From NCBI RefSeq assembly GCF_032854445.1, contig NC_088307.1, positions 4,280,001 to 4,344,000 of the forward strand: a stretch of 64,000 nucleotides of DNA, in the 5' to 3' direction. The position numbers and the translations under genes were made by a program. Of the stretch, positions 34,982 through 60,420 are shown piece by piece. Below the pieces are notes generated by a model. It did no database searches. It was not told the origin of the DNA and was given only the letters and a program-made list of their open reading frames with translations. Source of the DNA: Liolophura sinensis. Taxonomy: Eukaryota > Mollusca > Polyplacophora > Chitonida > Chitonidae. Numbering within the stretch: the stretch's first letter is position 1; every line of letters begins with the position of its first letter.

Positions 34982-37900
34982 ATGGTGAAGACAGACTTTG
35001 AGGTTTTTGAGTATGGCCATGACCTGTCTTCAGACTCGGACACGGATGAAGTTGGTAGCCATAGCAATCAGCTTCCACTTGAGAAGCCACCATTACCCAT
35101 GCATGCAGTCTTCAAAGGTATAGTTTGAATTTTCCTAAAATTTATGTATTAGATACCATGTTTTGTTCAAAGCATGCAAAGACTGCATGTACATGAATTG
35201 TACAATCCCTCAGTGAAAGTGATATCCCTTCACTTTACACCACAGACCTGATGTACTTGAAAAGTTGGCACAGATTATTGAACATTATCAAATAGTGACC
35301 AGGAAGAATTTTGAAAAAGGATTTAAGTTTGAAATAAACTGGAATGTTACAGGGTTAGTTGTAGGGCAATATGTTAATAGCTTCTATTAGGGGTTAAGAA
35401 CATGTAATAAATTTAAATGTGAGTTACGAGAAAGTGTCCTTTAACCATCCACACATTTTACTTTCAATTAACACGAATATTGTATTTATTTTGATCTGAC
35501 TCTGCACTAGCATTGATGTACTTTCATCAGAATAGGTTTGAGTTACCCAAGTCGGATGCACAAACTACGAACCAAGCACAAAGGAAAGTGTGATGGGAGG
35601 ATTGTGTTTTCAATATTTTTTCTACTTTCTCAGGCATTGTTAACCCCTATTCATAGTTGTGCAGGTTTGGCTTGGGGCATTACCAAGCCAAAAGGGCTTA
35701 AGACCTGCACCCACTGACATCTAATTACAGTTGCATAATTATTGTTACCACTGACTAGGAAGAAGAAACCAGATTATGTTCTCTTTAAGGAATCACAACT
35801 AAAATATGGCCTAAGGCATACTCAGCCACACTCCTTGGACACACCTCACTGAAAGAGACACCCCAAAGAAGGGTGTAATCACTTCTTATTGTACAAAAAG
35901 TTTAGCGTCTCTCCTTTTGGGCATTTCTTAATTATCCAGACTTGTACTTGGCAGTATCTTTCAGCAGGTGTGTGATGCCTTACAGGATAGCTCCTGGGTT
36001 GTCTCCAACCTGTTGTTAGTGTTCTTTACCTGGTGTTGAGCCAGGGTGTATAATGTGGCTTGTGCTGTTTGAAAAGAATGTCTTAAGTAGGGCATGAATG
36101 TAGAGACAGGTGAAAGTGCCAGGTACTGAATTTGATCTTATCCTACTAAGGTAGAAAAGGGCAGGTGTAGAGTGAAGGAACACAGGGAAATCCCAGAAAT
36201 TTTTTGGCTCCCAAAGTCTTTGGCGTTTACACATTTTGTGAACAATTTTAAACTGTTTTACTCAAGCAAATATGTTGAGTTCCTTTTTTTTTTGGCTCTT
36301 GGGTATCTTTTGGGATTCTTATTATGTATTTGAAATAAAATATTTTATTAATGAAAAATACAAGGGTGAGAAAATTGAGTCTGAATATATAGCCTATAGC
36401 CGACATTGAAGCATGCGCTTCATTTTCACATTGTAATAAAACTTTATTGTGCTTCACTTGTTTGAGCTTCATTGTCATCCACTTGTGTTTGTACCAACAC
36501 TGCCATCTGGTCTGCGGCTAAAACACATCTGTACTGACCTATGAGATAAGAGAGAAGTGTGTTCTTGGTCATGCATCAGTCACACGCCTCTGTTTGCAGG
36601 TGTACAAAAGGACGGGCTTGTAAGGCCCTGGTTACATGGCTGGCTGTCAGACAGGCACGCTTCATTGTTGACCTGGTAATATAAGTCAGCTGGGAGCAGG
36701 TGTTCCGTTGGCTGGTGTTAGAAAACAGAAGTTTAGAGTGACATTGCCATAAATTTTAACAGAATGACTTTCACACCTCATTTACTTCTCCAATAGTTGA
36801 CTGTCTTACCAGGTTATACAGTTTTGAATTCAACAGCTTGCCATTGGTTACAATATTCAATGTGTTGTAAAGGTTATTTTTTTTTTCCTCAAACTGCTTT
36901 GGAGCAAAAATTATTCATAAAATGGCATACATGCACTGTGGCTAGACTATTGAGAGGACTTGTCTTGAGAACATGTGATTACCACCTTTAAAACATATTC
37001 AGAATTGGTTTACAAATACTGTGTTTATGAGATTTGTGGGTAAAACATAGTTGTTATAGGTGAAGTTAAAGTCAGCATGAAATGTAAAACTTTAAAAGCA
37101 TGTACAATTCATTCCTCTTTCAGTCCATATGGCTTGTTTGTTCTAAATTTTTTGATATCACAAACATATTACAGATGTCAACTTGACCAACTGTGGTTTC
37201 AGGTACCTGATGTGGATGTGTAATTCGTGTCTTAGTATTCATTAATCAACAGGATGTTTTGTTCTTGTTTTTGGCCTGTCTAGACAGACAGGTGCTTCTG
37301 GGAGGAAATGTGAGCACAAAAATTACCAAACTGAATATGTGATTGCTCAGTTGTGTAATGTGTTAGACATTGGGTTTATTTCATCTAGCAATTCATGGCA
37401 GGAAGAACACTGTATTGTAAACAAAAGCATCTAGGATACAAAGTAGATTCAAAGTAGAAGTTAATATTAACAGGTAGTTGTCCGGTAAATTGGTTACATG
37501 CATGGAACCTGTAAACTTTTCTACCTGTCTTTTTTTTATCCCACTAACAAGAAAATTGCATAAGCAAAATGTTGACATCCTTTCATTTTAGTTGTACACA
37601 TATCTCACAATCAAATCTTTTTTTTTTAAATCTCAGCCCTTCCTGTGTATTATTACAATGAGATTGCCTGATAAACTCCCACCTTTAATTTCCAACTGGG
37701 AGTCCAGGTGAGAAAGAACCTACCTTAGGGGGTGATTGTTAGCACAGAGCAACAATCCTGCCAGTAGAGATCTCAAACCTTTCACACCTTTCTAACACCT
37801 TTGTGTTATGGCACATATTAAAGGGATAATTAGACTAAGTGAAAGCTGCCAAAGACAAAGGGGGGAAATAGTGAGGACTGGGGAATTAGGGTTTACCTGG

Positions 37901-40900
37901 TATTTTACCCCACACTTCTCACCTGTCATTTTATTTACCTGAGCTTTTGAGTAATCAGTGATCAGGCATGTGTCACTGTGGCTTCCCTTTGTACTGTGAC
38001 AAGGCATGATTTACTTACACTTACCAAGTTCAGAATTTTGAATAACATTAAACTGCAGGTCTGAATTTGAGTAAAACTACTTTCATTTGACATCTCTGTT
38101 TAAAACAGAGATGGCCTAGGATATCAGTCAGTGTGTTCACCAAGCTTATGTAGCTTAAACCCACTTCAGTGATGATCATTGTGATGTGTGGACTGTAATA
38201 TGATACTGTAGTGCTAAGATACCTGTCTGTTGTTAAAGGTATCTGTGATCTTGGAGGATAGTTAGGTTACCTGAGTTTATTTAGACTGGTATATATAACC
38301 CAGAGATTTGCACCTGTCCTTCATTCAGTATGACGCTGAGCAAAGGGCTAGAATCAGATCAGCATTTCTCGTACCACGAGTTCGTAGGGAAATGCACAAT
38401 GTCAAAACCATCTACTGGAGAGTTTTTTCCTTTGAAAGAAGCAGGTAGTTACAATTGCATTTCTGTTCTTCTATACAGTTTTTCCCCAGCCTGCCCACTT
38501 TGCACCTGTTTCAGCTTGGCTTCCTTCTGGCTGTATTAATATATCCTTCATATGTACCCCAGCCTCCAAAGAGCTGGCGTCCCATCTGAATGCATGTACA
38601 TGGTATCAGCTGTGCTGGCATATTGTACTTTCAATATTTAGTCTTTAAATAGTAATTTATTCTCTTTTTTTTTCTTTCACAGGTCAAATCAAGCTTGCTG
38701 TGTACATGAACTTTGGCCTGCTTACAGTGCATGGTAAGTGTTACAGTATTATCATTTGGTACTACTTGCAAAACTAGAAGTAACATGCAATACATACCTC
38801 TGGTCTTCAAGGTTCTAGACATGATGCCAGAATTTTGACACTCGAAGAAAGGGAGCAAACCAGGATAATTTAACAAGGTTATTGATGGAAAATAGTGTAC
38901 CGTTTTTTTTTCTGATCACGGCTAGATGTATTTTGAAAAGGGTGTTACATTGACATTATTGTTGCATGCATTCTGTATTGCTTAAAATATTGCGTCTTTT
39001 TGCATTCAGGAAAGTTAATAAATATTTTCTGCTTTCTCTCAGTTATCCAGTCCAGGCATTTGAGTTCCAAGTGGAAGTCCCTCTGTGATTCGTATGTCAA
39101 GGTAAGCCTAGTAAATCAACTTTCAGTGAATTTGACATAATTTCTGGAAATTTTTTTTAATATGACATGTTACTACAAATGTGACTACATGTCTTGACCT
39201 GTTTCACATTTTCCTCTTTTTTGCTGGTGTGATACTTCAGATGTTTAAGATGTGTTCCTATTTTTTGCTTGTTTGTCCACAGATGTCACTGTTACCTGAT
39301 GAGAGTAAGCGTACAAGATGTAAGACACAAGTTGTCTACGACTCCAACAACCCACTTTATGACGAGAAATTCTCATTGTAAGTGCAACATACAAATGATT
39401 TGTTAAGATTTAAATTTAGGATAAAATGGATTTTAAAAAATCCAGATGCAGTAGTTTTTACATTTTAGAAAGTAAATTGTGTCAGAAACCATTTTGATGG
39501 CACACTATCTCTAAATTCCCATATGTGTGTTTTTTTTGTTTGTTTTATTTAACAGTTCTTTAACTTTAACTTTGATATTTGCAGTGAACTTTTGGAAGAG
39601 GACCACAACAAGCGTTTGTTGATCTCTGTGTGGCACCGTGACCAGACAAGCAGCCTGAGCGAATTCCTGGGATGTATGTCATTTGGTGTGAGACACCTGC
39701 TTAATCCCAAAAAGGTAAGTCAATCTGTCTTCAGAGTTTTATGTCTGCAAAGGCTGGAGTTGTAAAATTTGCTTTTAATGAATGCATTTGAATTTAAAAA
39801 GTTTGGCTCACATATGTAAATTGTTAATCATGTACATGATTCATCACTTCTTTATCATATTTTGCAAATACCTTTTCCTTTTTGCAGGAGACAACAGGAT
39901 GGTATTATCTGTTGACTGAAGAAATTGGCCGTAAGAAGCATCTCCAGGTGTCGAAGAAAAAGCAACAGCAGCAACTCAAAGTCAGACGTAAGTTTTTTTG
40001 TTGGTTTTTTTTTGTTTTTTAAATAGTACAGTTAGAAAACTTATAAAGCAGCATTTGAAAAGAGAAAATGTCTTTTGTATAAAATATTGAAAGTTTAGCA
40101 CATAATCATTCTTTGCATTATTTTAATTTCTTGAGTTTACTTTTTTCTCTGCAGCTCACAACAACATCCCTGCCATTAACAAAGATATCTGGTGGATGGA
40201 CCCAATGACGGTAATTATCTCCCTTCATCCATTCCAAATTATCTTCCTTCCCCACCCTCCGTAAAGTCTCAGTATTTCATGTCCGACCAAGCTTTAAAAG
40301 TAGAGACATTCAAGTAGATATACTTTTTAGTTTTATTCATAAAAGTTTCTTATATTTGATTTCTTCATCTTTTCACAGATCACAGTTCTCCGAGGGAAGA
40401 ATGGGTTTGGATTCTCTGTGATTGAGTCTTGTCCAGTCAGGATCGGTAGAGTTGACAAAGGTAGGTTAAAACACACTCATTCTATATTGCCCCCAACACC
40501 ACTGCACACTAGTAATAATATGATGTATTATGTGAAATTTTAATATTTTTATAAATAAATGAAAATGTGTGAATATTGTCCATTATTTTTGTTGTTAGTT
40601 GTTTTTCTTAATATTAAACTTTCTGCTTCCAGCCTCTCCTGCTGAAGAAGCTGGCCTGAAGAAAGGGGACTGTATTGTGAGAGTGAACGGACGCAACGTT
40701 TCAAGGTCCACTGCTGACAGTGTTGTAAAATTGGTCAAGTAAGTATTTACTTTACAATTTGTCTTTGAAATAATTTTATCCTTAAGATCATCATCCAGGA
40801 TATATACAGCAGTACTTTAAAATTCATGCCATTGATAACTATAGCAATACAGCCTTTTATAAAACTGCAATATTGTGATATATAGATTGTGTTGTCCACT

Positions 40901-43900
40901 AAAATTAAAAATTATTTAATTTGATAACCTGTGGAACGTTTTCAGGCACAGCAGTGGCAAGCTGGTTTTGGATGTCCAGCGATCACAAGAAGTCTGCATC
41001 GAGAAGATGGACAAGTCGCCATGGAGACCATCGTCATCTATGCAGAACCTCAATGATGAGAACAAGCAGCCTGTGCCAGTGTACAATGATGACTTGTCTG
41101 AGTTTGACGGCTCGGACAACGAGAGCAGGGAAAGACAACTCTCGGTCGACGAGGACATAATCTTGGCTGAGGCAGATTTCCCTACCAGTACTCCATTGCC
41201 ATTATTCTGTAATGCTGCAAAGGTGAGTCTTTACCTTATTGATTTTTAATAGTTACCAATCAAGGATCAAAGGCCACTAACATATAAATCCGATTATCCA
41301 CATGTACTCTGTTTGATAAATTGTAATATCATCTGTACAAAATTAAGAAAAGTGGTTGTACAAATTTTAATTATTTCTATCTTTATTGTTTCCAGACGGT
41401 TCCCTCGGCTGATCGTCGTAAGCAGGAAGCTATTCACCGGCTGATGAGCATTGAGCTGGACTTCATTGACTTCATGCACAGCGGAATCGAGAGATACTCC
41501 CGACCCCTCAGGCACTGTATCCTGAATGCCAAGCAACACTTGGAACTCTTCCAGAACGTCGAAAAGGTAAGATGTTTTACCTGATGAAATACTGACTTAT
41601 GTTATCCTATTGTAAGATTACAATAAAAACAAACCTGCTGTAAGAATTTATTGATTGTCCCGAACAGTTTGCAAAACATCGTTCGGAAGTGGAAATGAGC
41701 TGTGTGACCAGTTGACCATCTAACATTCTTCGCACCAACTTCATTCTAATAAATGTGCATGATGTCTGTGTTGTGCAGTTGGTGACGATCTCCGAATACC
41801 ACATCAAGCAGATGCAGGACAATGCCCCGTCTTGCTCTGACACAGACACTACCAGTTCTCAGTCTTCTATGGACGGCACCAACCACTTTGTCAACTCCAT
41901 CGGCATGATCTACCAGTCTAAGGTAAGGCACTGGCAAATGTGGACATTGATATGTGCTATTATGGCTGTAAAATTGACACTCTTGCACTAATGCAGATTG
42001 ATTTAAATGAAGCCCAGGTGTAATACATATTTGTTGGTGTGTTCAGTTGTGAAATAGGTAATGTTTTCGAAAAAAAAAACGTGTTGTTATGTCATTGTTT
42101 AGAATAAAGTTTAATTGTGTGTTTTCCTTTTCTGAGACAGGTATGTCTTCATTCAGCTTAATTTGGCACAAAAGTTTTAGCATTTGTCATGCTTACTTAA
42201 CATACATATTGCTTTCTTTACCCACAGATACAACTGCTGTGCCAAGCCTATGATATTTATGCCCGGGGTCTCAGCAATGCCAACAAAGTGCTCTCAGATC
42301 TCAAACGATGCCAGGAATTCCAAAAATTTATCCAGGTACGCTAATAAACCTTTTTTGTCCTTCTGTCATATCACAGTTAGTTTCTACCATTTTTAGAAAG
42401 GTAAATGTAGTATTTTATTAATTAGGTAAGGCAAATTACAACATAAATGATCTTGAGCGCGGAATAGTAAATCAGACCTCCAATCTGAAGTGAGTAAATG
42501 CCGGTAAAATCCATCAATGAATTTCCTCACTCTCTCTGTGTTACAGGATGCTGACGATGGTCGACAGCCCAGTATCATGGCGTTCATCTACCGTGCTGCT
42601 CAGCATATCCGTGAGCTGTACCAGGTACTGAGGGATGTGTTTGAGAACACGCGGCCAGACAGCAGGGATTTCTACAAGCTCAAGAGAGTCGTCGAAGGTA
42701 AGTTGCACAATCAAAACAAGTGGTGATTTTTACACCATACTTTTGTAAATGTTGGTTATTGATAATGGTTAATAATGAGGAATAAATCAGATGGAGAAAG
42801 GTAAAACACCTTAATCTCTTAAATACTGTAAATCACCCTGCTCCATTAAGTTATGGAAAAATATGAGCACCTGAGCACCTCTCCAGAATAGTTGTGAATA
42901 CAAGAGGGCTATTGGTTGGTGAAAAATTTCCTTGAAATTATAACTGATTTTCTGTAATTCCTCTGAAAATATTCCTAAGGTACTTACCTGAACAGTGGTA
43001 TAACAGTGTCTTATCTCTTTTTCACTAGGTCTCCGGGAGTGTGTCACGAACATCACCAACTACAGCTGTACCAGAACCTGCAGCTGGGGGTCTATCAGTT
43101 CTGGCATCAGCTCAGACTCCGCCCGATCTTTGGGGTCCTCAGGGTCCTCCAGCACGGGGTCTGAATCCTACATGGGCAAACCCAAAGCCCCAAGTCCCTC
43201 ATTGGCCAGCTACAGGTCATGTGACAGTGAGGTCATGAAGCTCCAGGATAGGCTGATTTTCCCATCAAATGTTGAGGTAAATTAATTTGCTGTCTTTGTT
43301 AGGACATGTACTTTATTGAGTTGAAAATCCTTGAAATTATGATACAGTGTGAAAGGCTTGGAAATGTGATATAATGCACATTGTCCAAAGTCTCTTTTGC
43401 AGAGTTCTGAATGGTCTACTTTCAAACACAAATGTTGTTAATATTTGTTTCTTGTAATAATTAGAACTACAGATTAGTTTTTTTGTAAATAATTTAAATC
43501 AAACTCATGGTTTTACTTTTATTGTTGACAGATGTTCCAACTGTGTGGAGAGGACAGACATTTGATATACAGTAGTGAGCTGTATGAATGGGATGGCCGT
43601 GCCTGGGCTAAGGTGAGAACTCGCTAATCTCTCATGTCACCAGTTTTGTTATCAGAACTATTTTGACATACTCTGTAAATTAAAAATTAGCTGAAGATGT
43701 TTTTTCGAACTGATGTTAATGTAGATATACTATATATTTATATTCCCTAAGAATAGAACAGTAGAGCGCAAGATTTAGGTTTTTTTTATGGGATTCTGCA
43801 TAGTTATTCCCCTTGATGCGCACTGCTCTTGGAAGTTGTCTCCCCTGAAACTCAAACTTACAGTTTTCGATTTACTTTCAGATTCACGCCTTCCTGTTCA

Positions 43901-44476
43901 CTGACATTCTCCTACTGACTGAGCGAGACAGACGGGGCTACTACATTGTCCTTCAGAATCCTATCTTCCTCAGGGATGTTCGAGGAATTCACTCACAGCG
44001 AGAGCACAGTAAGTAGAAAAACTGACCTAGGTTGTAAATGTTCCTGGAAAGCTAAAATTGCTTTTGTAGTGTGTGTAACAGGTGAAAGCTTAACTTTTTG
44101 CCATTGATTTTGACTGTAAGAAGTTCATAGAAATCATAACACAAGATTAACACTAGTTGTTAAAAAATGGTAGTTATTATCTCATTGTTGCTAGAAAACT
44201 GAGTTAACTCTTTAATTCTTTGTTTAGAGTTAATGTTTTCTTTTCTTCTTTTTTTCAGAAACTGAATTTGTTATGCATGTAAACAGCCCAAGGGATCCCT
44301 TCAGCAACTGCCGCGTTTCATTCGCTGAGAAGCACCTTTTCCGATCACCGTCCTCGGAACAGAAATTCACCTGGAAAAGCCTGATTGAGCAGAGAATCTT
44401 CGCAGTACGCGGGAGCGTAGAGCATTTCAGCAGTACCAGCAGCATCAACAACTGTGGCTCCACCGTTATCGTCTGA
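34982..44476 (+). CDS. C2-PDZ-(DH-like)-PH signalling scaffold, RGS3 N-terminus-like (779 aa isoform)
   Basis: Eighteen exons, all GT-AG and frame-consistent: 34982-35117, 38683-38733, 39043-39101, 39283-39377, 39585-39714, 39888-39987, 40155-40210, 40379-40460, 40633-40738, 40946-41222, 41396-41566, 41779-41922, 42228-42335, 42547-42697, 43029-43276, 43532-43612, 43882-44008, 44259-44476. The first exon starts MVKTDFEVFEYGHD and carries acidic SSDSDTDEVG. Order by residue: C2 about 47-178, lysine/glutamine-rich linker to 190, PDZ 210-284, acidic linker, DH-like helices about 370-560, serine/glycine-rich linker, PH about 639-755, and a tail ending STVIV. Compared from memory, the C2 and PDZ resemble vertebrate RGS3, which also has a PH-like region but then an RGS domain; this protein stops without one. 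Likely a membrane- and receptor-associated adaptor or Rho-pathway protein. Exchange activity is doubtful (see the DH entry). The ending VIV could be a class II PDZ ligand. Homologues may be named RGS3-like or RhoGEF. Confidence 0.9.
38292..38328 (+). promoter_or_regulatory. TATA plus initiator promoter for start exon D
   Basis: TATATAA at 38292-38298 is followed 31 bp later by TCATTC (38321-38326), which fits the animal initiator consensus with its A at 38323. Transcription from there would give a leader of only about seven bases before the ATG at 38330. Both elements and their spacing are textbook. Use in vivo is untested. Confidence 0.55.
38330..38444 (+). CDS. Alternative first coding exon D of the C2-PDZ-DH-PH gene
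   Basis: The ATG (A at -3) opens 38 codons plus one base, MTLSKGLESDQHFSYHEF through FFPLKEA, ending at a GTAGTT donor after 38444. It leaves phase 1, the same as exons 27421-27617 and 34982-35117, so it can join the acceptor at 38682 in frame to give a 772-residue isoform. Unlike the other starts it lacks an aspartate-rich run. A TATA/initiator pair lies directly upstream. The donor is weaker than the others. Confidence 0.55.
38683..39987 (+). other. C2 domain (five exons)
   Basis: Residues 47-178 of the 779-residue isoform. Begins IKLAVYMNFGLLTVHV, continues with CDSYVKMSLLP, SNNPLYDEKFSF and LLISVWHRD, then LGCMSFGV and GWYYLL. The order matches a type I C2 sandwich, and GCMSFGV...GWYYLL is close to what I recall of vertebrate RGS3. 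Of the five calcium-binding acidic positions, the loop-1 Asp (D78) and one loop-3 Asp (D133) are present. The first loop-1 Asp is absent (SSKWKS), loop 3 has His131 for Asp, and the last position is Ser-Glu. The domain is therefore probably calcium-independent. Confidence 0.85.
40379..41222 (+). other. PDZ domain and acidic linker (three exons)
   Basis: Residues 210-284 form a PDZ: ITVLRGKNGFGFSVIES, with the carboxylate-binding loop GFGF at 218-221, then SPAEEAGLKKGD and VRVNGRNVS, ending LVLDVQR. The first position of helix B is not histidine, so class I preference is not expected. Residues 285-364 are an acidic, disordered linker with DDLSEFDGSDNESRE. The PDZ would bind C-termini of membrane proteins such as receptors or ephrin-type ligands (general family knowledge; the partner is unknown). 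Confidence 0.9.
41396..43276 (+). other. Divergent DH (RhoGEF-like) region and Ser/Gly-rich linker (five exons)
   Basis: Residues about 370-560 follow the DH pattern. CR1 is RRKQEAIHRLMSIELDFIDF with the conserved Glu384. A middle block is YDIYARGLSNANKVLSDLK. The CR3 equivalent is FIYRAAQHIRELYQVLRDV ending ENT. Against the canonical CR3 (PxQRxxRYxLLL), Pro is Ala, Arg after Gln is His, and the RY pair is Glu-Leu, with no gaps needed. The fold is likely kept, but the GTPase-contacting surface is altered, so guanine exchange may be lost or retargeted. Residues about 565-635 are low complexity with SSGISSDSARSLGSSGSSS. Confidence 0.7.
43532..44476 (+). other. PH domain and C-terminal tail (three exons)
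   Basis: Residues 639-755 read as a PH fold: LIYSSELYEWDGRAW, then AFLFTDILLLTERD, LQNPIFLRDV and a terminal helix with the conserved tryptophan (FTWKSLIEQRI). It sits directly after the DH-like block, as in DH-PH exchange factors. The tail ends NNCGSTVIV followed by TGA at 44474-44476. Confidence 0.8.
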
Positions 44477-45370
44477 AAAAACTGAATCATCAATTTATTT
44501 ATGTGCTCAGACATATGATGGTGCTGCGTTTGCTTCTTGGATCATGAAGGAATTCTCTACTAGTGTATCCTGGGAGGAGATCATTATTTCAAAGTGCTGG
44601 CTGAGGATGTGGACTGTACACTGACTTCACTGATGGAAAAAGTTTTCCATGACCAAACGATCAAAGACTTGACAAAAATGTGGAACAATGATTTTTTTCA
44701 AAACATTGCAATACGCTTGCAAGTACCTTCTTGAAGGAAACAATGTTTAAGTTTATTTTCACAAAATGACACTCTGTGCTATTGTATAGATACACTTCGA
44801 CAAACCATTCCAGTGCTTGTGAACTTAGGTGTTTACAATAGGGTACTATTGTATGATGTAACTAGCCTTTTAGTGTTTATACGCTCTGCATGTTTTATTT
44901 ATTTGGACACGGCAGTGTATTTGTGAATTTTCCTACTGTTTTTACACCAAAATGTGCAATGACTATTTACGGCTCTTCCCACGAGGACCCGTATTTTAAA
45001 CCTCACAAAAATGATGAGGTGGACATTTTAGCAACTTTTTAACTTTTCAGTAAGAATATTGGTTTGCTAGTTATATAAGAAGTGTGTTTCCTTGTGTAAA
45101 TTATATTAATTAAATTAGAAAAAGCAGAAACTTGGACATTTATAAGTGTCCCTGCACCAGCAAATGTCATGGTAACTTATGAGATGGTCAGTACCAGTTT
45201 ATGATTTCATCTTTCAGAAAGCTGTCCAATGTGCTTGTATTTTTGTTAAATACTCCGTCTGTTTTCCTGTACAAAGCTTGTTAAATCGTGTACATAATTG
45301 TCTATAGGTTTTGTATCATATCGAAAAAACAACTTACACAAAGTATTAAAACAAAATGATATACCGTGAA
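44477..45370 (+). terminator. 3' UTR of the C2-PDZ-DH-PH gene
   Basis: ATTAAA variant polyadenylation signals lie at 45109-45114 and 45345-45350, the second followed by GT/T-rich sequence. No canonical AATAAA appears sooner. The end is approximate. Confidence 0.5.
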
Positions 45371-45927
45371 AATTGCGACTTCTTCGATTTCTTCATGTGT
45401 TTGGTTCCTAGTGTTTCCAGCTTTAATTTGTTGTTCCCAAGTACCACTTGACTGTCTTCGACTGACTGTATTCTTCAGCAGACCATCCAAAGACCAGTAA
45501 GGTTGGGTTTCCACTCTCAGCACAGAGCATTATGGGATACATATATTATGACTCATTCATATAGTGTAAATTGGAAACTTTTATATCTCCAGTTACGACT
45601 TACAAGGTTCTCATGTGATTGATGCGAGTATCTGTGTCACTTTAAAACCTTTTTTTTCAAATACCTGAAAGTGGGAAATGCCGATTTGTGAAATGAATCC
45701 ATGATCTTCTCACATTTTCCATGGATCTCTTAGGAATTAATTTTCCTGTGAAAAGCAAGCAAAGAGAAATGCTGGATGTTCTCACCTTGTTTTGACCATC
45801 ATAGTCCTAATAGAATTCTTTTAGATGCGTGAAATTTCAGAAACTAGATTGTGACCAACAACTATCGGTCAACTTAACAATCCTGTCCCCCAGCTTTGAA
45901 CCAATCACCCTAAATGTCACAGTGATT
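45371..45927. other. Intergenic, nothing recognised
   Basis: Only short chance open frames on both strands. Confidence 0.4.
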
Positions 45928-46120
45928 ACTGTTCGCATGTTTGCAAGGTGTTTATTCAAGCATATTCTGAAGGTACTATCCTGTGTAGACTGATAAGATT
46001 CGAGCCCTGAAACTGGCCTACCTAGCCAATGTAGTGACTCCAAAATCTTATTTAAAATGTGCATAAATTGCACAGAAAATTGTTCTTTCATATGCTAAAA
46101 GATTGAGGAGTGAGATACAG
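45928..46120 (+). repeat. Unnamed interspersed repeat, copy 3
   Basis: Shares TTCAAGCATATTCTGAAGG, CCCTGAAACTGGCC and ATGTGCATAAATTGCAC with the intronic copy at 20450. A decayed SINE-like stretch (TATAAGTGAAAAATTCTTGG) follows near 46238, as a SINE follows copy 1. Confidence 0.7.
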
Positions 46121-49294: not shown

Positions 49295-49299
<5 letters not shown>

Positions 49300-49667: not shown

Positions 49668-49849
49668 ATATGAAGCTCATTTCAAATGTCGGTGGAGACA
49701 TGTTATTAGACGTAGGGGACTGCATGATTAATTTTTGTTATGTGGTTTATGGCCTTTGGGGTGAAAGGTAACCATACCTATACAGTGCCCGTTAGTTGAA
49801 GAAGCCCCCCCCCCCCCGACGCCATTTTTACAGATATGCACACGTTTTA

Positions 49850-51300
49850 GTTACGAAAGACTGTTTTCAGCATTATGTTGCTCGACCGTATCATGCACAC
49901 AAGATCAGGTAGCCGTGCAGACGTTTCAATTGCGACAAACTTGTTTTAACGTTTTAACATTTTCAGACCGTATCACGCACACAAGATCAGGTAGCCGTGC
50001 AGACGTTTCAGTTACGAAAGACTTGTTTTAACGCGTTCAGCTTTATGTTGCTCGACCGTATCATGCACACAAGATCAGGTAGCCGTGCAGACGTTTCAGT
50101 TACGAAAGACTTGCTTTAACGTTTTCAGCTTTATGCTGCACGTCTGTACCATGCACACAAGATCAGGTAGCCGTGCAGACGTTTCAGTTACGAAAGACTT
50201 GTTTTAACGCGTTCAGCTTTATGTTGCTCGACCGTATCATGCACACAAGATCAGGTAGCCGTGCAGACGTTTCAGTTACGAAAGACTTGCTTTAACGTTT
50301 TCAGCTTTATGTTGCTCGACCGTATCATGCACACAAGACCAGGTAGCCGTGCAGACGTTTCAGTTACGAAAGACTTGTTTTAACGCGTTCAGCTTTATGT
50401 TGCTCTACCGTATCATGCACACAAGATCAGGTAGCCGTGCAGACGTTTCAGTTACGAAAGACTTGCTTTAACGTTTTCAGCTTTATGCTGCACGTCTGTA
50501 CCATGCACACAAGATCAGGTAGCCGTGCAGACGTTTCAGTTACGAAAGACTTGTTTTAACGCGTTCAGCTTTATGTTGCTCGACCGTATCATGCACACAA
50601 GATCAGGTAGCCGTGCAGACGTTTCAGTTACGAAAGACTTGTTTTAACTTTTTAACATTTTCAGACCGTATCATGCACACAAGATCAGGTAGCCGTGCAG
50701 ACGTTTCAGTTACGAAAGACTTGCTTTAACGTTTTCAGCTTTATGCTGCACGTCTGTACCATGCACACAAGACCAGGTAGCCGTGCAGACGTTTCAGTTA
50801 CGAAAGACTTGTTTTAACGCGTTCAGCTTTATGTTGCTCTACCGTATCATGCACACAAGATCAGGTAGCCGTGCAGACGTTTCAGTTACGAAAGACTTGC
50901 TTTAACGTTTTCAGCTTTATGCTGCACGTCTGTACCATGCACACAAGATCAGGTAGCCGTGCAGACGTTTCAGTTACGAAAGACTTGTTTTAACGCGTTC
51001 AGCTTTATGTTGCTCGACCGTATCATGCACACAAGATCAGGTAGCCGTGCAGACGTTTCAGTTACGAAAGACTTGTTTTAACTTTTTAACATTTTCAGAC
51101 CGTATCATGCACACAAGATCAGGTAGCCGTGCAGACGTTTCAGTTACGAAAGACTTGTTTTAACGCGTTCAGCTTTATGTTGCTCGACCGTATCATGCAC
51201 ATAAGATTAGGTAGCCGTTCAGACGTTTCAGTTACGATCGAATTGCTTTAACGTTTCAACGTTTTCAGACCGTATCATGCACACACGATCGGGTAGACAT
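49850..51300. repeat. 88-bp satellite with 434-bp higher-order repeat
   Basis: About 17 monomers, each holding AAGATCAGGTAGCCGTGCAG and GTTTCAGTTACGAAAGACTT. Three linker types occur: A (GCGTTCAGCTTTATGTTGCT), B (GCTGCACGTCTGTACC) and C (TTTTTAACATTTTCAGACC, shortening the unit to 82 bp). The variant AAGACC recurs at 50335 and 50769, exactly 434 bp apart (4 x 88 + 82), and the order A-B-A-C repeats with it. The outermost monomers are the most diverged. No coding. Confidence 0.92.
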
Positions 51301-51387
51301 GCATTCATGTTTCCAGGCATAATATATTAGATCTACTCATGGCGATGTTCGCCGCTTACAGGCTGGTATTGATACCGATAAAAAAAA

Positions 51388-51510
51388 AGCCTCCGCGGCC
51401 CAGTGGTTAATGTACTGGTACAACACAGTGGCACAGGAATCTTGCCACCAATGCGATCGTTGTGAGCCCGTCCCACCCATGCTGGCTTAATTCCTCTCCG
51501 GTTGTCAAAA
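51388..51510 (+). mobile_element. tRNA-derived SINE head
   Basis: GCCTCCGCGGCCCAGTGG followed by TTAATG resembles a tRNA 5' half with A box. A degraded B-box region is GTTGTGAGCCCGTCCCACC, then ATGCTGGCTTAATTCC as in the common SINE head. Confidence 0.55.
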
Positions 51511-51707
51511 CTTGATAATTTAAACAATTCAAATTGTTGATTCAAGCTCCAAGAGAAAGCGTTTTAACGTAATGGCCATATGACTGCATATATATGTATA
51601 TGTATATGTATAGGCCTGTACGCCTTAGTTTTCTTCAACCATAATAATTTTTGGCAAAACGGAATATATCTCGCAGAAATAAGGAAACTTACCTTTAAAA
51701 TTGGTGG

Positions 51708-51840
51708 TATAAAACTCTGAAAATCTCCCTTTGCAATAAATGAACGCCGGGCGTCATGACTATACCCTGCTGTATAAAACTCTGAAAATCTCCTTTCACG
51801 ATGAATGATCGCCGGGCGTCATGACTATAACCTGCTGTGT
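51708..51840. repeat. 65-bp tandem duplication
   Basis: TATAAAACTCTGAAAATCTC begins at 51708 and again at 51773, each followed by CGCCGGGCGTCATGACTATA. Confidence 0.85.
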
Positions 51841-51894
51841 TGAGGGAACCGTCTATATACAAGCGTTGTGTACATGTGTATATGATGCTTTGAG

Positions 51895-51898
<4 letters not shown>

Positions 51899-51976
<78 letters not shown>
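51899..51976. repeat. (TA)n microsatellite
   Basis: About 39 TA units without interruption. Confidence 0.97.
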
Positions 51977-51979
<3 letters not shown>

Positions 51980-51999
51980 TACTCATCACAATGCATGCA

Positions 52000-52989
52000 C
52001 TGTAAAACTAATCTGTTAAATTTAACACAATAATATGTTTTTCTATAACAATAATATATGGCAGATTGTGTTACTGAAACATATTATGCTGTGTGCAACA
52101 CCAAGTCATGTAATTAGTTACATCACCTTATTGAAGTATTCTGTAGGAATAACAGAGCCTATATGTCTAAGTCTATGATAAGTGACACAACAGTGTCTAT
52201 AGCCATAGCAAAATTTATTCGGCCATCATTCAAAGAACATACATGTATCCAGTGTCCTGTTAGATTAAACAGACTGGTTTTTACAGTGTACCTTTATTGC
52301 GCATTTTCTCCTCTCCCCACTGAGCCCCAGCAATACCCCTTGAGTGTACCTCGCTTAACTTTCCATTCCGTGTGTATAGCGTACTCGCTTTCTCCCATAC
52401 ATTTCCCCATTGACGTAGATTGCCCCCCCCTCCCCTGGGGGTGGGGTATTTTTGGCAACGTTCACCATCCCCGACAGCTGGAGCACGTATTACTAGTATC
52501 TTCTGATACTGAAGAGTTTTGAGCAAATATAACCTTCCTCTTACCCATTCTGAACCTATACTACAAGGTACCATACAACAGATGTACTAAATAAAGATTC
52601 CTACAATATACTGGTACCCTGGTAAGCCTATATATATACTGTGATGTATCATATATTTATGTTTGCAGGTATTCTAGAATAAAATAAAAATAGAAATTTG
52701 TGTTGCAGTCCCGGAGGAGGGAGTGGGGGGGGGGGGTAGAAATGTTTGGAATTCGAAAGAAAGCCATTTCATGAATTAAATGATCTGTGATTCCCAAATA
52801 GTCTGAATTAAATTAATATTTTGTTGTAGGCCCACATCACAATTGTCGTATTTGCTTAGCTGAAATTAATAGGTGGATTGTGTACGTTATGAGGAGGGAG
52901 ATGAAATACATGAGTATGTCGTATACATCTGTGTGAATATATGAATGGTGTTTGACCAGGGTTTAATGAAGCTTTTATATAATTATGCA
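52000..52989. other. Spacer with poly-C and poly-G tracts
   Basis: A half copy of the ACACTC foldback family may start near 52003 (CTAATCTGTTAAATTTAAC). C-rich (52422-52436) and G-rich (52718-52736) runs occur. A 119-codon open frame at 52163-52522 has no supporting features. Confidence 0.35.
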
Positions 52990-53178
52990 CGACAGGGTAG
53001 TCTGAATGATGCTTGAATGTATTCTGTAATTAAAACACAATAGGCCTATTCCGTTAGTCTAATGGTATTTTTAGAATATGTGTGTTATATTCAACACAAT
53101 AATCTGCTGCAATAATAGATTAGGTTCTTGCGTCACTCAGACAACAGATTTTTTAACAGATATTTTTTTGAGTGTAGA
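52990..53178. mobile_element. ACACTC foldback element, copy 2 (left end decayed)
   Basis: Carries GAATGATGCTTGAATGTATT at the left and CACTCAGACAACAGATTTTT with TTTTTTTGAGTGT at the right, as in copy 1. Confidence 0.65.
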
Positions 53179-53261
53179 ACCCATTGTAAATGAATCTTCA
53201 ATCCAAATTCAAGATAATGTCATGCATACACGCAAAGAATAATTTGGAAATTTTAATTTAA

Positions 53262-53400
53262 TATTATTCTGTTAATGTAATATGATCTTCATGCTGAGTT
53301 AGTACGATGTATGTGCTATACATTTAATAGACTACATTTTTGCATCACTCAAACAACAGATTTTCTGTTAAATTTAACAGATTATTTTTTTAGAGTGTAG
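53262..53400. mobile_element. ACACTC foldback element, copy 3 (partial)
   Basis: The right arm is intact: GCATCACTCAAACAACAG, TTCTGTTAAATTTAACAG and TTTTTTTAGAGTGT. The left arm is mostly lost. Confidence 0.6.
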
Positions 53401-53720
53401 GCTGCACTGATTTAGAATCATTTCTAGACATCTGAACACTATAAATGACGCAAGTACCTATTTATACTACATCTTTGTACTTCAGAAACACTATTTAATG
53501 GTTCCAAAAATATTAATCTGTAATATGGTTATATAAATATATGTAGCATATATATAACCATGTTGCAGAATAATCTTTTCTATGTTCATTTGAAAAAAAA
53601 TTGTTTATAACATCAAATTAAGTTATGATTACAATTGAAAGAATCATGTCCATGGAATTTGTGGATTAGCTCACTCTCATGATTTGTGTGGCCATTCCTG
53701 GAAATAAGTCGACGATGCTC

Positions 53721-54257
53721 CTGTGGCCGTTATCACTAGGCTGGCACACGCGAATATCCCAAACACCAACCGATCCTGTGGCCGTTATCACTAGACTGGC
53801 ACACGCGAATATCCCAAACACCAACCGATCGTGTGGCCGTTATCACTGGACTGGCAGACGTGAATATCCCAAACACCAACCAATCGTGTGGCCGTTATCA
53901 TTGGACTGGCACACACGAATATCCCAAACACCAACCGATCCTGTGGCCGTTATCACTAGACTGGCACACGCGAATATCCCAAACACCAACCGATCGTGTG
54001 GCCGTTATCACTAGACTGGCACACGCGAATATCCCAAACACCAACCGATCGTGTGGCCGTTATCACTGGACTGGCACACGCGAATATCCCAAACACCAAC
54101 CGATCGTGTGGCCGTTATCACTAGACTGGCACACGCGAATATCCCAAACACCAACCGATCGTGTGGCCGTTATCACCTGTGGCCGTTATCACTGGACTGG
54201 CACACGCGAATATCCCAAACACCAACCAATCGTGTGGCCGTTATCACTAGACTAGAC
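53721..54257. repeat. 55-bp minisatellite
   Basis: Unit GTGGCCGTTATCACTAGACT plus GGCACACGCGAATATCCC plus AAACACCAACCGATC. About ten copies start at 53723, 53778, 53833 and onward. One junction near 54175 is shortened (ATCACCTGTGGCCG). Very low divergence between units. Open frames across it reflect lack of stops only. Confidence 0.93.
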
Positions 54258-54315
54258 AGTTCGTTTAGTATCGCCTTGTTGAAAACATGATATTAGACAT
54301 GACAAGTACTGAATT

Positions 54316-54568
54316 CGAAAAAGTAATCTGTTAAATTTAATAGAAAGTGTGTTGTTTGAGTGATGCTAGAATGCATTCTGGCCTTGCAGGAGGTTGTTCT
54401 GCTATATATCGCGTACGTATTCTATTATTTGTACATGAAGACTGTATAATGTTATAACAGGATATTCCGTTGAATATAATACACAATTATGTTACAATAA
54501 CAGGATACATTCTAGCATCACTCAGAGAACAGACTTTCTGTTAAAATTAACAGATTATTTTTTTTTTA
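54316..54568. mobile_element. ACACTC-family foldback element, copy 4
   Basis: Inverted arms of about 60 bp: AATCTGTTAAATTTAATAG, GAGTGATGCTAGAATGCATT at the left, mirrored by TACATTCTAGCATCACTCAG and TTAACAGATTATTTTTTT at the right. The best preserved pair of arms in the window. Confidence 0.75.
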
Positions 54569-55118
54569 TGTGAAAAAATAAATTTGTGCCCAATTATGGA
54601 TGACTTTGCATGAATATTGTAGCTTTAACGATGGATATCTTTATTTTTTCCTCTTAAAAGACGTTCAAACTAATGTGTAAGATCCAAGCCAACTTCCGGG
54701 GCTTTGCTGGACCTTGTGTACGACTGTTGGCTTTGGACGCTGGTTGCATTGGAAACACTTCGGATGTGCGCAGGAGAAATTAATAAATGCCTGAGCGTAT
54801 AATAAAAAAATATAATGAAACTGTAACAAAGACAGCTCCCAGGCTAATTAGTTGTAACACATCACCCAATACCCTTGTGAAAATATTTGCATTTTTGCGC
54901 GGCGCGTTTTTTTTTCTTTACGTGTTGTGCAAAAATAACGTTGGGTTTACGAATATAACCGGTCTTTTCTTTTTTCGCCTGGGTGAGAACGTCATGTATC
55001 TAAGCGAGCTAATTAATCTTTCTTCTTATCGTATACTAAAGCGCTTGTGGTAGGTTTGCCAAATTGTGGGAACCGGCTGTTAGAAGGCCGGGGAGAAAAA
55101 GTGGTTCCATCGTGCCTT
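54569..55118. other. Spacer upstream of the second gene
   Basis: An 88-codon open frame (54787-55053) is low complexity and unsupported. No repeats recognised. Confidence 0.4.
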
Positions 55119-55126
55119 TGACGTCA
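55119..55126 (+). promoter_or_regulatory. CRE site upstream of the second leader exon
   Basis: Perfect TGACGTCA about 220 bp before the GC-rich leader exon. Possible CREB/ATF site; motif evidence only. Confidence 0.4.
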
Positions 55127-55339
55127 TCCGTATTTTGTGGAGCAGATCTATAAATAGAACATAGGTCCAGTCGATTATATGGAGGGCAGACCATTTAAAC
55201 CCTCCCAATGTTTCAGTACAAACCATTGTTTATTTTCAACTGACAGACTAGGGTAAATAAACAATAAGAGAACAATTCACAACAGTTTGTAAGAATTGCA
55301 AGAACAACATTGTTTATAGCGTGAAATCTAATATTGCCA

Positions 55340-55569
55340 GAGGTGATGAATGCGCGCCGGCCGGAGAGGTGGAAGAGCGGCGGCTGACTTTGTGGTTGTT
55401 AAGGGCCACCGTAAGTCGTACAACAAGCGCGTTGCCATTTGAGATGAGATAGCGAAATGCTGAAGCCGTTTGCCAGTCTGGAAGCCGCTATCGCCTACAA
55501 CTTTATCGTTATGGGCGAATTCTGTCGAGCTTTATAGGCGAAGTGGATTGAATCGAGCTCAAGACGAAG
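55340..55569 (+). promoter_or_regulatory. GC-rich leader exon of the downstream gene
   Basis: A local rise in CpG (GCGCGCCGGCCGG, AGAGCGGCGGC) precedes a donor GAAG|GTAATG after 55569. A second, stronger donor-like ACC|GTAAGT follows 55409. The next plus-strand acceptor with downstream coding is at 59786, so the 3.7 kb repeat array would be intron 1. The start position is a guess. Confidence 0.45.
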
Positions 55570-55984
55570 GTAATGTGTCTTTCCCTAACTTCCTTGTGGG
55601 AATTAATTGATAGTTTTGCTTGCATTCAAGTTTTCCCACATCCCTCCATATTTTAGAGACTTCGACACATGCACACGCTGTCAATCACCTTTGGCTGGTT
55701 TCTTGTTAATTCACCGCAGTTTACAAAATTCTTTCGTTCTGCCAGCGTTATTCTTGTCTACATTTTATTATTACCATTGATTATCAGGAACAGCATCTGG
55801 AGTTTTCCACTGCAGTATAAAACGCCCAAGGTTACTTTGGGATTTCACCGGTTACATATTGACACTCGCGCTCTTGTCGAACTTTTATACGATGGAACAG
55901 ACGCGCCATATTTAATTCGGTATTGTTTTATTCCAGGAAAGGACAGAGTGATACAGATTGTGCAGGCTTTCAGATATCTTCATT

Positions 55985-58540
55985 GATTACTGATGACAGC
56001 TACTCCTCACTTACCCTGTCAGTCGTTCAGTTCTATAGCTACTGACCCTGTCAGTCAGTCAATCAGTCATTCAGTTCTATCACTACTGACCCTGTCAGTC
56101 AGTCATTCAGTTCTATAGCTACTCACCCTGTCAGTCACTCAGTCAGTTAGTTCTATAGCTACTCAGCCCTGTCGGTCAGTCAGTCAGTCAGTCAGTTCTA
56201 TGGCTAATCACCCTGTCAGTCAGTCAGTCAGTCAGTCAGTCAGTCAGTCAGTCAGTCGGTCATTCAGTTCTATCACTACTGACCCTGTCAGTCAGTCATT
56301 CAGTTCTATAGCTACTCACCCTGTCAGTCAGTCAGTTCTATAGCTACTCAACCCTGTCGGTCAGGCAGTCAGTCAGTCGTTCAGTTCTATGGCTAATCAC
56401 CCTGTCCGTCAGTCAGTCAGTCGTTCAGTTCTATCACTACTGACCCTGTCAGTCAGTCATTCAGTTCTATAGCTACTCACCCTGTCAGTCAGTCAGTCAG
56501 TCAGTTCTATAGCTACTCAACCCTGTCTGTCAGTCAGTCAGTCAGTCATTCAGTTCATTAGTTACTCAGTCCATCAGTCAGTCAGTTCTATAGCTACTCA
56601 CCCTGTCAGTCAGTCAGTTCTATAGCTACTCAACCCTGTCGGTCAGTCAGTCAGTCATTCAGTTCTATGGCTAATCACCCTGTCAAGGAGTCCGTCAGTT
56701 CTATAGCTACTCACCCTGTCAGTCAGTCAGTCAGTTTTATAGCTACTCACCCTGTCAGTCAGTCATTCAGTTCTACAGCTACTCATTCTGTCAGCCACTC
56801 ATTCAGTTCTATAGCTACTCACCCTGTCAGCCAGTCAGTTCTATAGCTACTCATCCTGTCAGTCAGTCAGTCAATTCTATAGCTACTCATCCAGTCAGTT
56901 CTGTAGCTATTCACCCTGTCAGCCAGTCAGGCAGTCAGTTCTATAGCTACTCACTGTCAGTCAGTCAGTCATTCAGTCATTCAGTTCTATAAGGTACTCA
57001 TCCTCTCAGTCAGTCAGTCAGTCAGTCAGTCAGTCAGTCAGTCAGTTCTTTAGAAAGTCACCCTGTCAGTGAGTCAGGCAGTCAGTCAGTAAGTCAGTCA
57101 GTTCTATAGCTACTCACCCTGCCAATCAGTCAGTCATTCAGTTCTATAGTTACTCACCCTGTCAGTGAGTCAGTCACTCAGTCAGTCAGTCAGTCAATCA
57201 GTTCTATAGCTGCTCACTTTGTCAGTCAGTCAATTGGTTCTATAGCTACTCACCGTGTCAGTCAGTTGGTTCTTTAGCTACTCACTGTGTCAGTCAGTCA
57301 GTCAGTTCTATGGCTACTCACCCTGTCAATCATTAAGTTCTATAGCTACTCACCCTGTCAGTCAGTCAATCAGTCATTCAGTTCTATACCTACTCACCCT
57401 GTCAGCAAGTCAGGTCAGTCAGTCAGTTCTATAGCTACTCAACCCTGTCAGTCAGTCAGTCATTCAGTTCTATAGCTGCCCACTCTGTCAGCTACTAGCT
57501 ACTCATCCAGTCATTTCTGTAGCTATTCGCCCTGTCAGTCAGTCAGTTCTTTAGCTAGTCACCCTGTCAGTCAGTTAGTCAGTAAGTCAGTCAGTTCTAT
57601 AGCTACTCACCCTGTCAGTGAGTCGAGCAGTCAGTTCTATAGATACTCACTGTCTGTTAGTCAGTTAGTCAGTCATTCAGTCATTCAGTTCTATAGCTAC
57701 TCGCCCTGTCAGTCAGTCAGTAAGTCAGTCAGTTTGATAGCTACTCACCCTGTCAGTGAGTTGGGCAGTCAGTTCTATAGATACTCACTGTCTGTCAGTC
57801 AGTTAGTCAGACATTCAGTCATTTAGTTCTATAGCTACTCGCACTGTCAATCAGTCAGTCAGTCAGTCGGTTCTATAGCTACTCACCGTGTAAGTCAGTC
57901 GGTCAATCAGTCAGTCAGGTCCATAGCCACTCAACCTGTCAGTGTAACAATCACTTCTATAGCTACTCACTCTGTTAGTCAGTCAGCTCTGTAGCTACTC
58001 AACACACTGTCAGTCAGTTAGTCAGTCAGTTCATTAGTTACTCAGTGCATCAGTCAGGCAGTTCTATAGCTACTCATCCTGTCAGTCAGTCAGTCAGTCA
58101 TTCAGTTCTGTAGCTACTCACCTTGTCAGTCAGGCAGTCAGTAATAGCAGTAGAGTTACTCACCGTGTCAGTCAGTCAGTTCTATAGCTACTCACCCTGT
58201 CAATCAGTCAGCCAGTCAGTTCTATAGCTACTCATCGTGTCAGTCAGTCTGTTCTATACCTACTCACCGTGTCAGTCAGTCAGTCAGGCAGTTCTATAGC
58301 TGCTCAGCCTGTCAGTCAGTCAGTCAGGTCTGTAGCCACTCAACCTGTCAGTGTAACAATCACTTCTATAGCTACTCACTCTGTTAGTCAGTCAGCTCTG
58401 TAGCTACTCAACACACTGTCAGTCAGTTAGTCAGTCAGTCAGTCAGTCAGTCAGTTCATTAGTTACTCAGTCCATCAGTCAGTTCTGTAGCTACTCACTC
58501 TGTCATTCAGTCAGTTCTGTAACAATTCAGAAGGTTCACC
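55985..58540. repeat. (CAGT)n-based compound minisatellite
   Basis: Runs of CAGT alternate with TTCTATAGCTACTCACCCTG, giving units of variable length. CAGT is the reverse complement of ACTG. The 105-codon open frame just before it (55669-55986) has no support. Confidence 0.95.
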
Positions 58541-59690
58541 CGATCATCTCTATACATGTAGCTCCTCAAGCAACAATATCCTTAGTTCCTCACCCAATCA
58601 ATCAAACACTCGTCCAGTTCATGCAATCATTTCTATAGCTATTACCCAATTCAACCAATCATTTAGCTACTAACCCAGTTCAGCCAATCAGTTCTATAGT
58701 TCCTCACCCAGTTCATGCAACCATTTCTCTAGCTGCTTACCCAGTTCAGCCAATCATTTTTACAGCTACTCATCAAGTTCATCCAAGCATTTCTATAGCT
58801 CCTCACTCAGTCATTACTATAGATACTCACCCAGTTCATCCAATCATTTTATAGCTACTCAACCAGTTCATCCAGTCATTTCTACAGCAACTAACCCAGT
58901 TCATCCAACCATTCTCTAGCTACTTACTCAGTTCAGCCAATCACTTTTACAGCAATTGATCAAGTTTATCAAATCATTTCTATAGCTCTTTGGCCAATCA
59001 TTTCTGTAGCTCGTCTCCCAATCATTTATAGAGATACTTACCAAGTCCATCCTATCATTTCTACAGCTACTCACCCAATTCATCCAATCAGTTCTTTGGC
59101 TACACACCCAATTTATCCAACCATTGCTCTAGCTGCTTACCACTCTAGCTGTTCAGCAAATCATTTTTATAGCTACTCACCAAGTTCATCCAATCATTTC
59201 TATAACTGCTTTCCAATTCAGTTCATCCAAACCTTTCTATAGCTGCTCACCCAATTCATCCAAGCATTTCTGTATCTGCTCACCCAATTTATCCAAACAT
59301 TTCTGTACCTGCTCACCGAATTCATCCAAGCATTTCTGTATCTGCTCACCCAGTTCATCCAAACCTTTCTATAGCTGCTCACCCAATTCATCCAAGCATT
59401 TCTGTATCTGCTCACCCAATTTATCCAAACATTTCTGTACCTGCTCACCCAATTCATCCAAGCATTTCTGTAGCTGCTCACCCAATTCATCCGAACATTT
59501 CTATAACTGCTCATTCAATTCATCCAAACATTTCTATAACTGCTCATCCAATTCATCCAAACATTTCTATAACTGTTATCCAATTCATTCAAACATTTCT
59601 ATAACTGCTCACCCAATTCAGTATTTCTACAGCTTACTCTACAGTTCTATAACTACTTATCCAGTTCAGTCAATCATTCTTAAGCTACTC
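58541..59690. repeat. Diverged minisatellite, 33-bp units with 132-bp higher-order period
   Basis: Units of TTTCTATAGCTACTCACCCA with GTTCATCCAATCA continue the previous array after the CAGT runs stop. At 59218-59514 the unit settles to 33 bp (CAATTCATCCAAGCATTTCT with GTATCTGCTCACC), and four-unit blocks repeat: AAACCTTTC occurs at 59229 and 59361, 132 bp apart. Confidence 0.9.
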
Positions 59691-59786
59691 TCCACTGAAA
59701 TTATGTCAACGAATCAGTCATTTACTCTGTTATTAACCAAAATCCTAGAATTTTGAATTCTCACTCACTTTTTCTTACTATTCCAG

Positions 59787-60420
59787 GTGGGGATGATGGC
59801 TGTGGTTTGCCTCAGACAAGAAGATTAACAGCATTGTCCATTGAATGCTTTTGACATATAGGGTACTGGCAGATGTCAGACACAGCAACATCCTGCTAGG
59901 CTTTGGCTGGAAGCAACATGACAGCTGATGTCTGACTCAGAGGAGTATATAAGGCTTTAGACTTTGTACAACAAATATTTGGAGCCAAATTGTAGGGTGT
60001 GTGATTGAATTTGATGTGTTCATCTTCATTTGCAAATTACGGGACATTTTTCAGACAGCGGGACGTATTTTGATCAAATATGGTCGTGTGTGGGTAGGTC
60101 AGAAGTCATTGACTTGTTTGAGCGGTCAGTGGACCATCACAGGACAGTGACCTTGTGGAGCTTACTGATGCACCTGGGTTCAAATTCTTTGATTGGTCAC
60201 CGGTAATACACCAGTTGAAAGTTGTAAAATTTTCCGGGTTTTAGGAACAAGGAAGGACAACAAAAAAAGAATTCTTGCCATAAGGTGCCAAAAAAATTCT
60301 CATATAAGGACGTCAAAAAAAAGTTCCACAATGGCCAAGAAAGCTAAAGATAAAAAGTGGAAAACCAAGCTGAGTGTGACGTTGAACCAGCCTAAGATAT
60401 CGCCTGATCAAGAAGACTCA
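59787..60420 (+). other. Candidate exon with upstream short frames
   Basis: Acceptor TTACTATTCCAG ends at 59786 and donor GTAAGT begins at 60421. The first ATG (59793) opens a 12-codon frame ending within 59828, an upstream ORF. A second possible acceptor, GGGTTTTAG, ends at 60244. From 60245 the main frame is open and basic all the way to the ATG at 60331. Confidence 0.5.
60331..60420 (+). CDS. First coding exon of a downstream gene, possibly an R4-class RGS protein
   Basis: The ATG lies in good context (ACAATGG) and opens 30 codons ending exactly at a strong GTAAGT donor in phase 0. The peptide begins MAKKAKDKKWKTKLSVTL and ends SPDQEDS. The KKWKTKLS..L stretch alternates basic and hydrophobic residues like the amphipathic membrane-targeting N-terminal helix of small RGS proteins (RGS2, RGS4, RGS5; compared from memory). 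The rest of the gene lies beyond 64000 or in exons I could not identify in 60421-64000. Reading upstream in frame, the sequence is open from a TGA at 60190-60192 with no earlier ATG. The identity is a hypothesis from about 20 residues. Confidence 0.45.

Follow-up and report, generated by a model that had tools for sequence, protein, structure and literature searches.

A PsGEF gene and a downstream R4 RGS gene in Liolophura sinensis form a probable counterpart of the vertebrate RGS3 locus

The long form of vertebrate RGS3 is a single protein, encoded by one gene, with the domain order C2, PDZ, PH-like and R4 RGS and no DH domain. A related protein, PsGEF, has been described in insects and in the limpet Lottia and is composed of C2, PDZ and RhoGEF domains (PMC2684095). 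As far as the available text of that 2009 report goes, its C2-PDZ part was noted to resemble vertebrate RGS3, an RGS domain was noted as absent, and GEF activity on Rac was reported for Drosophila. Among the genomes searched there, DH-bearing PsGEF occurred only in insects and the limpet; the DH exons were said to have been lost in Daphnia, where an adjacent transcript encodes a PH-like domain, and the proposal of Higuchi and colleagues was a gain of RhoGEF exons by an RGS3-like gene in protostomes (PMC2684095). In the open-licence literature this paper was the only one among the matches listed to treat RGS3 together with PsGEF, and a word search of the available text of PMC10605842, PMC5091641 and PMC2954821 did not return 'RGS3'. 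PsGEF and the R4 RGS proteins are both known families. The new points here are their linkage and the probable correspondence of the PH domain with RGS3, both absent among the matches listed in the open-licence literature.

The window analysed is a stretch of 64,000 nucleotides (C13:4280001-4344000) within a 609-Mb assembly. The reading was extended to C13:4442000, with window numbering continued past 64000 (C13 position = extended coordinate + 4280000); the 162 kb read in total, window plus extension, contained no N. We consider it likely, with a probability of about two in three, that this stretch is the Liolophura sinensis counterpart of the vertebrate RGS3 locus, and that a single locus was ancestral and lost its DH part on the vertebrate line. 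This verdict was drawn from a single genome and depends in part on a provisional human RGS3 sequence.

Table 1. Features of the PsGEF and RGS region (window numbering, continued past 64000) and of an RGS12-type gene on another contig (C6 coordinates)
Feature	Position	Strand	Remarks
PsGEF gene	34982..44476	+	18 coding exons, 779 aa; introns GT-AG, phases in agreement, frame free of internal stops
PsGEF exons 1-6	34982-35117, 38683-38733, 39043-39101, 39283-39377, 39585-39714, 39888-39987	+	
PsGEF exons 7-12	40155-40210, 40379-40460, 40633-40738, 40946-41222, 41396-41566, 41779-41922	+	
PsGEF exons 13-18	42228-42335, 42547-42697, 43029-43276, 43532-43612, 43882-44008, 44259-44476	+	
C2 domain exons	38683..39987	+	best PDB match RGS3 C2 (3fbk)
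PDZ domain exons	40379..41222	+	PDZ end early in exon 40946-41222
RhoGEF (DH) exons and DH-PH linker	41396..43276	+	Pfam RhoGEF
PH domain exons	43532..44476	+	includes late-found exon 43532-43612, phase 0 to 0
Possible second first exon of PsGEF	27425-27617	+	begins with ATG, as does 34982-35117
Modelled PsGEF C-terminus	44462-44476	+	...STVIV
Candidate first exon of RGS gene	60331..60420	+	30 codons, ends in phase 0
RGS gene exons (extended)	145201-145905, 149080-149273, 150246-150409, 152564-152727, 153960-154133	+	GT-AG, matching phases
Tandem arrays between the blocks	49863-51237, 53670-54255, 56058-59571, 60723-61602, extended 112175-116335		units include 88 bases x 14.6 copies and 23 bases x ~177 copies
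Dispersed element	9341-9519, 46772-46991, extended 65154-65336, 101168-101305, 109135-109329	both	recurrent peptide pieces such as GRARGKPTTIRRLLADL
RGS10/RGS12-like exon	C6:48455203-48455367	-	
PDZ near this exon	C6:48483498-48483722	-	44% identical to PsGEF PDZ

A sequence-only reading of the window had placed a C2-PDZ-DH-PH gene on the plus strand with its end at 44476, and a phase-consistent GT-AG model together with Pfam matches agrees with it (Table 1). The initial model consisted of 17 exons, and the Pfam domain scan and the first PDB search with the PH domain were run on this version, without 43532-43612. It contained a C2 domain (2e-19), a PDZ domain (PDZ_6 1.6e-12, PDZ 2.8e-10) and a RhoGEF (DH) domain (1.9e-12), and a protein with C2, PDZ and RhoGEF in that order is PsGEF. 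By tblastn, the provisional human RGS3 segment lying between PDZ and RGS matched the known PH exon (E 8e-5); a second, weak match (E 3.2) fell between two known exons, and it was this one that led to the eighteenth exon, which has 81 bases and good splice sites. With it included, the RhoGEF match improved to 5.7e-13 and the PH domain was matched by Pfam PH over model positions 2-103 of 105 with E 2.5e-4, at 22 bits and so under the cut-off of 25.1. The model has its own stop and ends without an RGS domain. Upstream, the possible second first exon and exon 1 can each be spliced to exon 38683 in phase 1 without closing the frame and share an SDTD-type acidic stretch (DSDTDDEVE in the former, DSDTDEVG in the latter), so that PsGEF perhaps has two alternative first exons and two promoters. 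At the other end of the protein, the modelled C-terminus could be a hydrophobic PDZ-binding tail.

Comparison of the individual domains with PDB chains pointed to RGS3, whose C2, PDZ and RGS domains are represented by 3fbk, 2f5y and 2oj4. In a search with a PsGEF model still lacking exons 43532-43612 and 40155-40210, the C2 domain matched that of RGS3 with 133.9 bits over 137 residues, followed by protein kinase C with 70.7. The best matches of the PDZ domain were likewise RGS3 (1whd 44.5, 2f5y 41.6 bits), closely followed by a bacterial protease (41.3) and RGS12 (40.3). Judged by these scores, C2 and PDZ of PsGEF appear to be of the RGS3 kind, clearly so for C2 and narrowly for PDZ. A search of the assembly for a second C2-PDZ gene gave 17 matches, with no C2-like match adjoining a PDZ-like one outside the PsGEF locus.

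The PH domain probably extends this correspondence to the middle of RGS3. The human segment used was taken from the provisional sequence, whose flanking PDZ and RGS parts are consistent with 2f5y and 2oj4. PsGEF residues 631-699 align with this segment over 70 columns at 38.6% identity; in a search against this one sequence the match has 45.1 bits and E 1.1e-8. The alignment runs from the DH-PH linker (LIFPSNVE in PsGEF, LVFPVFVQ in RGS3) into the PH domain. The local score of 104 was not reached in any of 5000 shuffles, whose maximum was 59. The provisional segment passes the Pfam model of a RhoGEF-type PH domain, SOS1_NGEF_PH (29.6 bits, cut-off 27.7), and the PsGEF PH scores 17.9 bits on the same model, under that cut-off. 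Neither the PsGEF PH (without the added exon) nor the provisional segment matched a PH domain in PDB by sequence, and the two match each other. On this alignment, vertebrate RGS3 seems to retain only a remnant of the Rho-activating part of PsGEF. The opposite course of events, close to that proposed in PMC2684095, would start from an RGS3-like ancestor with C2, PDZ, PH and RGS, to which protostomes added a RhoGEF while the RGS part became a separate neighbour. The distribution of DH-bearing PsGEF in that survey, with only insects and the limpet, speaks for such a gain. A RhoGEF-type PH domain kept in the provisional RGS3 sequence, together with its match to the DH-PH linker, fits loss of DH better than gain, and the PH-like transcript next to a Daphnia gene said to have lost its DH exons also tells against gain (PMC2684095, available text), which we regard as improbable.

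The RGS part lies beyond the window. A Pfam RGS profile search of the assembly gave 11 matches, two of which are on the plus strand of C13, starting 88.5 kb past the window, and when the plus strand of the 162 kb was scanned for the sequence that precedes the RGS core, one match rose above threshold. An RGS gene with a PF00615-type domain, expected from the sequence-only reading past 64000 on the same strand, is therefore present. Its product comprises a linker, the helix LARHVKRKLQFLRRR and then an RGS domain (Pfam 1.5e-36, cut-off passed); helix and domain are encoded from 150246 onwards, 106 kb past the PsGEF stop and 90 kb beyond 60420. In a scan for the basic amphipathic R4 helix, a measure of sequence likeness only, the position 150241 scored highest among 129,142 stop-free windows. 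The nearest PDB chains of the RGS core were RGS2 (115.1 bits), RGS3 (115.0) and RGS5 (113), and 72 of 167 residues, helix included, were identical to the provisional human RGS3. In a tree built with fifteen provisional human RGS domains, the gene joined the R4 group (86/88, short of the program's star level) and stood away from RZ, R7 and R12. The RGS domain alone is thus not specific to RGS3, being as near to RGS2. The first RGS exon of the extension, at 145 kb, has no second copy found in the assembly. A likeness between PAYALFLQFNPGS in this exon and PNYIILAPLNPGS in the provisional RGS3 was weak (E 0.94) and was set aside.

Other RGS matches, compared with provisional human domains, belonged to R7, R10/R12 and RZ. 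The match at C7:21.5 Mb showed a weak likeness to RGS10, and for those at C9:1402570 and C10:31867031 none of the nine provisional domains gave a hit at 1e-3. For a match at C1:19.9 Mb, the provisional RGS4 was best at 31%, yet a PDB search identified it as axin (53.5 bits, next family 37.9). Since none of these was classed as R4, the gene downstream of PsGEF is the one R4-like RGS gene that a non-exhaustive search of the assembly revealed, and the earlier proposal that the parts of RGS3 are divided between two neighbouring units on the same strand is upheld. Such a neighbourhood might have arisen by chance, with an R4 RGS gene happening to follow PsGEF and the likeness to RGS3 reflecting shared domain families only. 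R4 RGS domains are not RGS3-specific, the blocks are separated by 100 kb of mostly non-coding DNA, and one genome was seen, all of which would suit a coincidence. For a single R4 gene placed at random, however, the probability of falling downstream at such a distance, with strand shared, is 8.7e-5 (3.5e-4 for either side and strand), and the C2 and PH likeness is specific to RGS3, which makes chance the least credible of the explanations considered. It is probable that RGS3, PsGEF and the R4 RGS gene beside it go back to one locus and that vertebrates lost the DH.

Between PsGEF and the RGS gene no recognised gene was found, and the DNA of about 100 kb is mostly non-coding. The strongest unassigned segment before the RGS core in a codon-use scan was the 145-kb exon (20.9), and the next scores within the gap were 8.9 on the plus and 9.7 on the minus strand. 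A Pfam scan of 232 open frames of at least 60 aa on both strands from 44.5 to 145.1 kb, exclusive of masked tandem repeats, low-complexity frames and frames across fetch borders, gave three single matches, DUF2569, Defb50 and SCAMP (E 0.0028 to 0.0062), which were taken as chance. There were 347 frames of 45-59 aa, 173 of them on the plus strand; a scan of 150 of these 173 gave two matches (E 0.0059 and 0.0095). In a positive control, the same kind of scan on 68 frames taken from PsGEF and from the RGS gene returned RGS and C2 along with one chance match and missed PDZ, RhoGEF and PH, so a small gene in the gap could be missed. Several of the tandem arrays in this region have extended parts free of stops in all or most frames and are a trap for ORF-based reading.

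The sequence-only reading had assigned an R4-like helix to a coding exon starting at 60331. This part of its observation did not hold, while the C2-PDZ-DH-PH gene and the downstream RGS gene did: the best 16 residues there (at 60343) ranked third in the helix scan, behind 150241 in the true R4 helix and a chance match on the minus strand, which puts the R4 likeness at noise level. A direct splice from 60420 to 150246 would also break the frame. Rejected as an R4 helix, 60331-60420 is still the best candidate for a first exon of the RGS gene. It ranked first (12.6, next 7.1) among 22 candidates between 44480 and 145190 that start with ATG, have at least 45 bases, end in phase 0 and have a donor of at least 4.9, the lowest modelled value, when ranked by codon use and donor score; a stricter donor limit left 11 candidates and dropped this exon (donor 6.0). 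It is in phase with the phase 0 acceptor at 145201, and with it as start the candidate model yields an RGS protein of 496 aa across an 85-kb intron. On this candidate model, a gene starting at 60331 would encode an RGS domain.

PsGEF and the RGS gene might also be one complex gene, in which alternative splicing yields, in addition to PsGEF and to shorter forms of RGS, proteins of the type C2-PDZ-RGS, which would be RGS3-like, or C2-PDZ-DH-PH-RGS. Both blocks lie on the same strand without a recognised gene between them. Vertebrate RGS3 is one gene, and C. elegans RGS-7 is a C2-RGS protein (a search of the open-licence literature for text on the C2 of RGS-7 found none among the matches listed). 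Frames are compatible: a join from 41222 to 145201 is open and, as had been noted, the donor after 44008 is in phase 1, the phase needed by an exon starting at 60245, so that the path 44008-60245-60420-145201 stays open through to the RGS stop. Nine of the 17 PsGEF donors are in phase 0, though, and the fit with 145201 is too permissive to count as evidence. The acceptors 60245 and 59787 score 4.8 and -0.8, and the 21 acceptors of the gene models all score at least 5.4. The proposed splice from 44008 to 60245 is thus in frame, but it relies on a weak acceptor and drops the last PsGEF exon, which encodes the C-terminal part of the PH domain. The best donor in this last exon scores 3.8 against 4.9 for the lowest modelled donor, so a vertebrate-like fusion of a complete PH domain to RGS is improbable in this animal. 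A complex gene is accordingly unlikely, if somewhat less so than the gain of a RhoGEF. With the PsGEF stop and the poor donor of its last exon counted for two blocks, two separate transcripts seem the likelier output, within common descent of the whole locus and loss of DH on the vertebrate line.

Under the preferred reading of an ancestral locus that lost DH in vertebrates, and with biochemical roles taken from the respective families, the first block would encode a C2-PDZ-DH-PH protein that probably acts at membranes, binds partners through its PDZ domain and activates Rac. The second block, which follows on that strand after about 100 kb, would encode an R4 RGS protein that speeds GTP hydrolysis on G-alpha. 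The ancestral order would have been C2, PDZ, DH, PH and RGS; vertebrates would have come to hold C2, PDZ, a remnant PH and R4 RGS in one protein with DH gone, and the absence of DH exons in Daphnia would be a parallel case. A more far-reaching version, about as unlikely as the complex gene, may be put forward tentatively: the bilaterian ancestor might have had one C2-PDZ-DH-PH-RGS locus whose alternative splicing could supply both Rac activation and G-alpha inhibition, perhaps even within a single molecule. Vertebrate RGS3 would then be a RhoGEF minus its catalytic domain with the PH kept, and protostomes would have kept the catalytic domain and made RGS mainly as a separate protein, with joined transcripts still produced in animals such as L. 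sinensis. If the preferred reading is right, PsGEF would not be a protostome invention, and RGS3 would derive from a Rho activator coupled to a domain that switches G proteins off. The middle of RGS3 would be explained, an origin of R4 RGS genes suggested, and a single locus provided for comparing the coupling of G-protein and Rac signalling across animals.

Among the known systems, PsGEF of insects and Lottia shares the order C2, PDZ and RhoGEF with the gene described here, and Lottia PsGEF has two introns in its PDZ-coding part, as does this gene (after 40460 and 40738). No feature setting the two apart was found; in the available text of PMC2684095, published PsGEF is described without an adjoining RGS gene or a PH domain of its own. 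RGS12-type genes offer a second comparison, for the PDZ and the RGS exon on C6 (Table 1) lie 28 kb apart on the same strand, the RGS being nearest to RGS10/RGS12, and by their sequences probably form a gene of this type. With the R4 RGS genes (RGS1, 2, 4, 5, 8, 16, 18 and others) the downstream gene shares the RGS domain, the preceding helix and its placement in the tree, and it is longer than these, having a linker of about 330 residues before the helix in the model. Vertebrate RGS3 matches the locus in its order of C2, PDZ and R4 RGS domains, probably also in the PH-like part before the RGS, and differs in being one protein without DH, whereas in L. sinensis DH is present and the RGS part lies 106 kb beyond the end of PsGEF.
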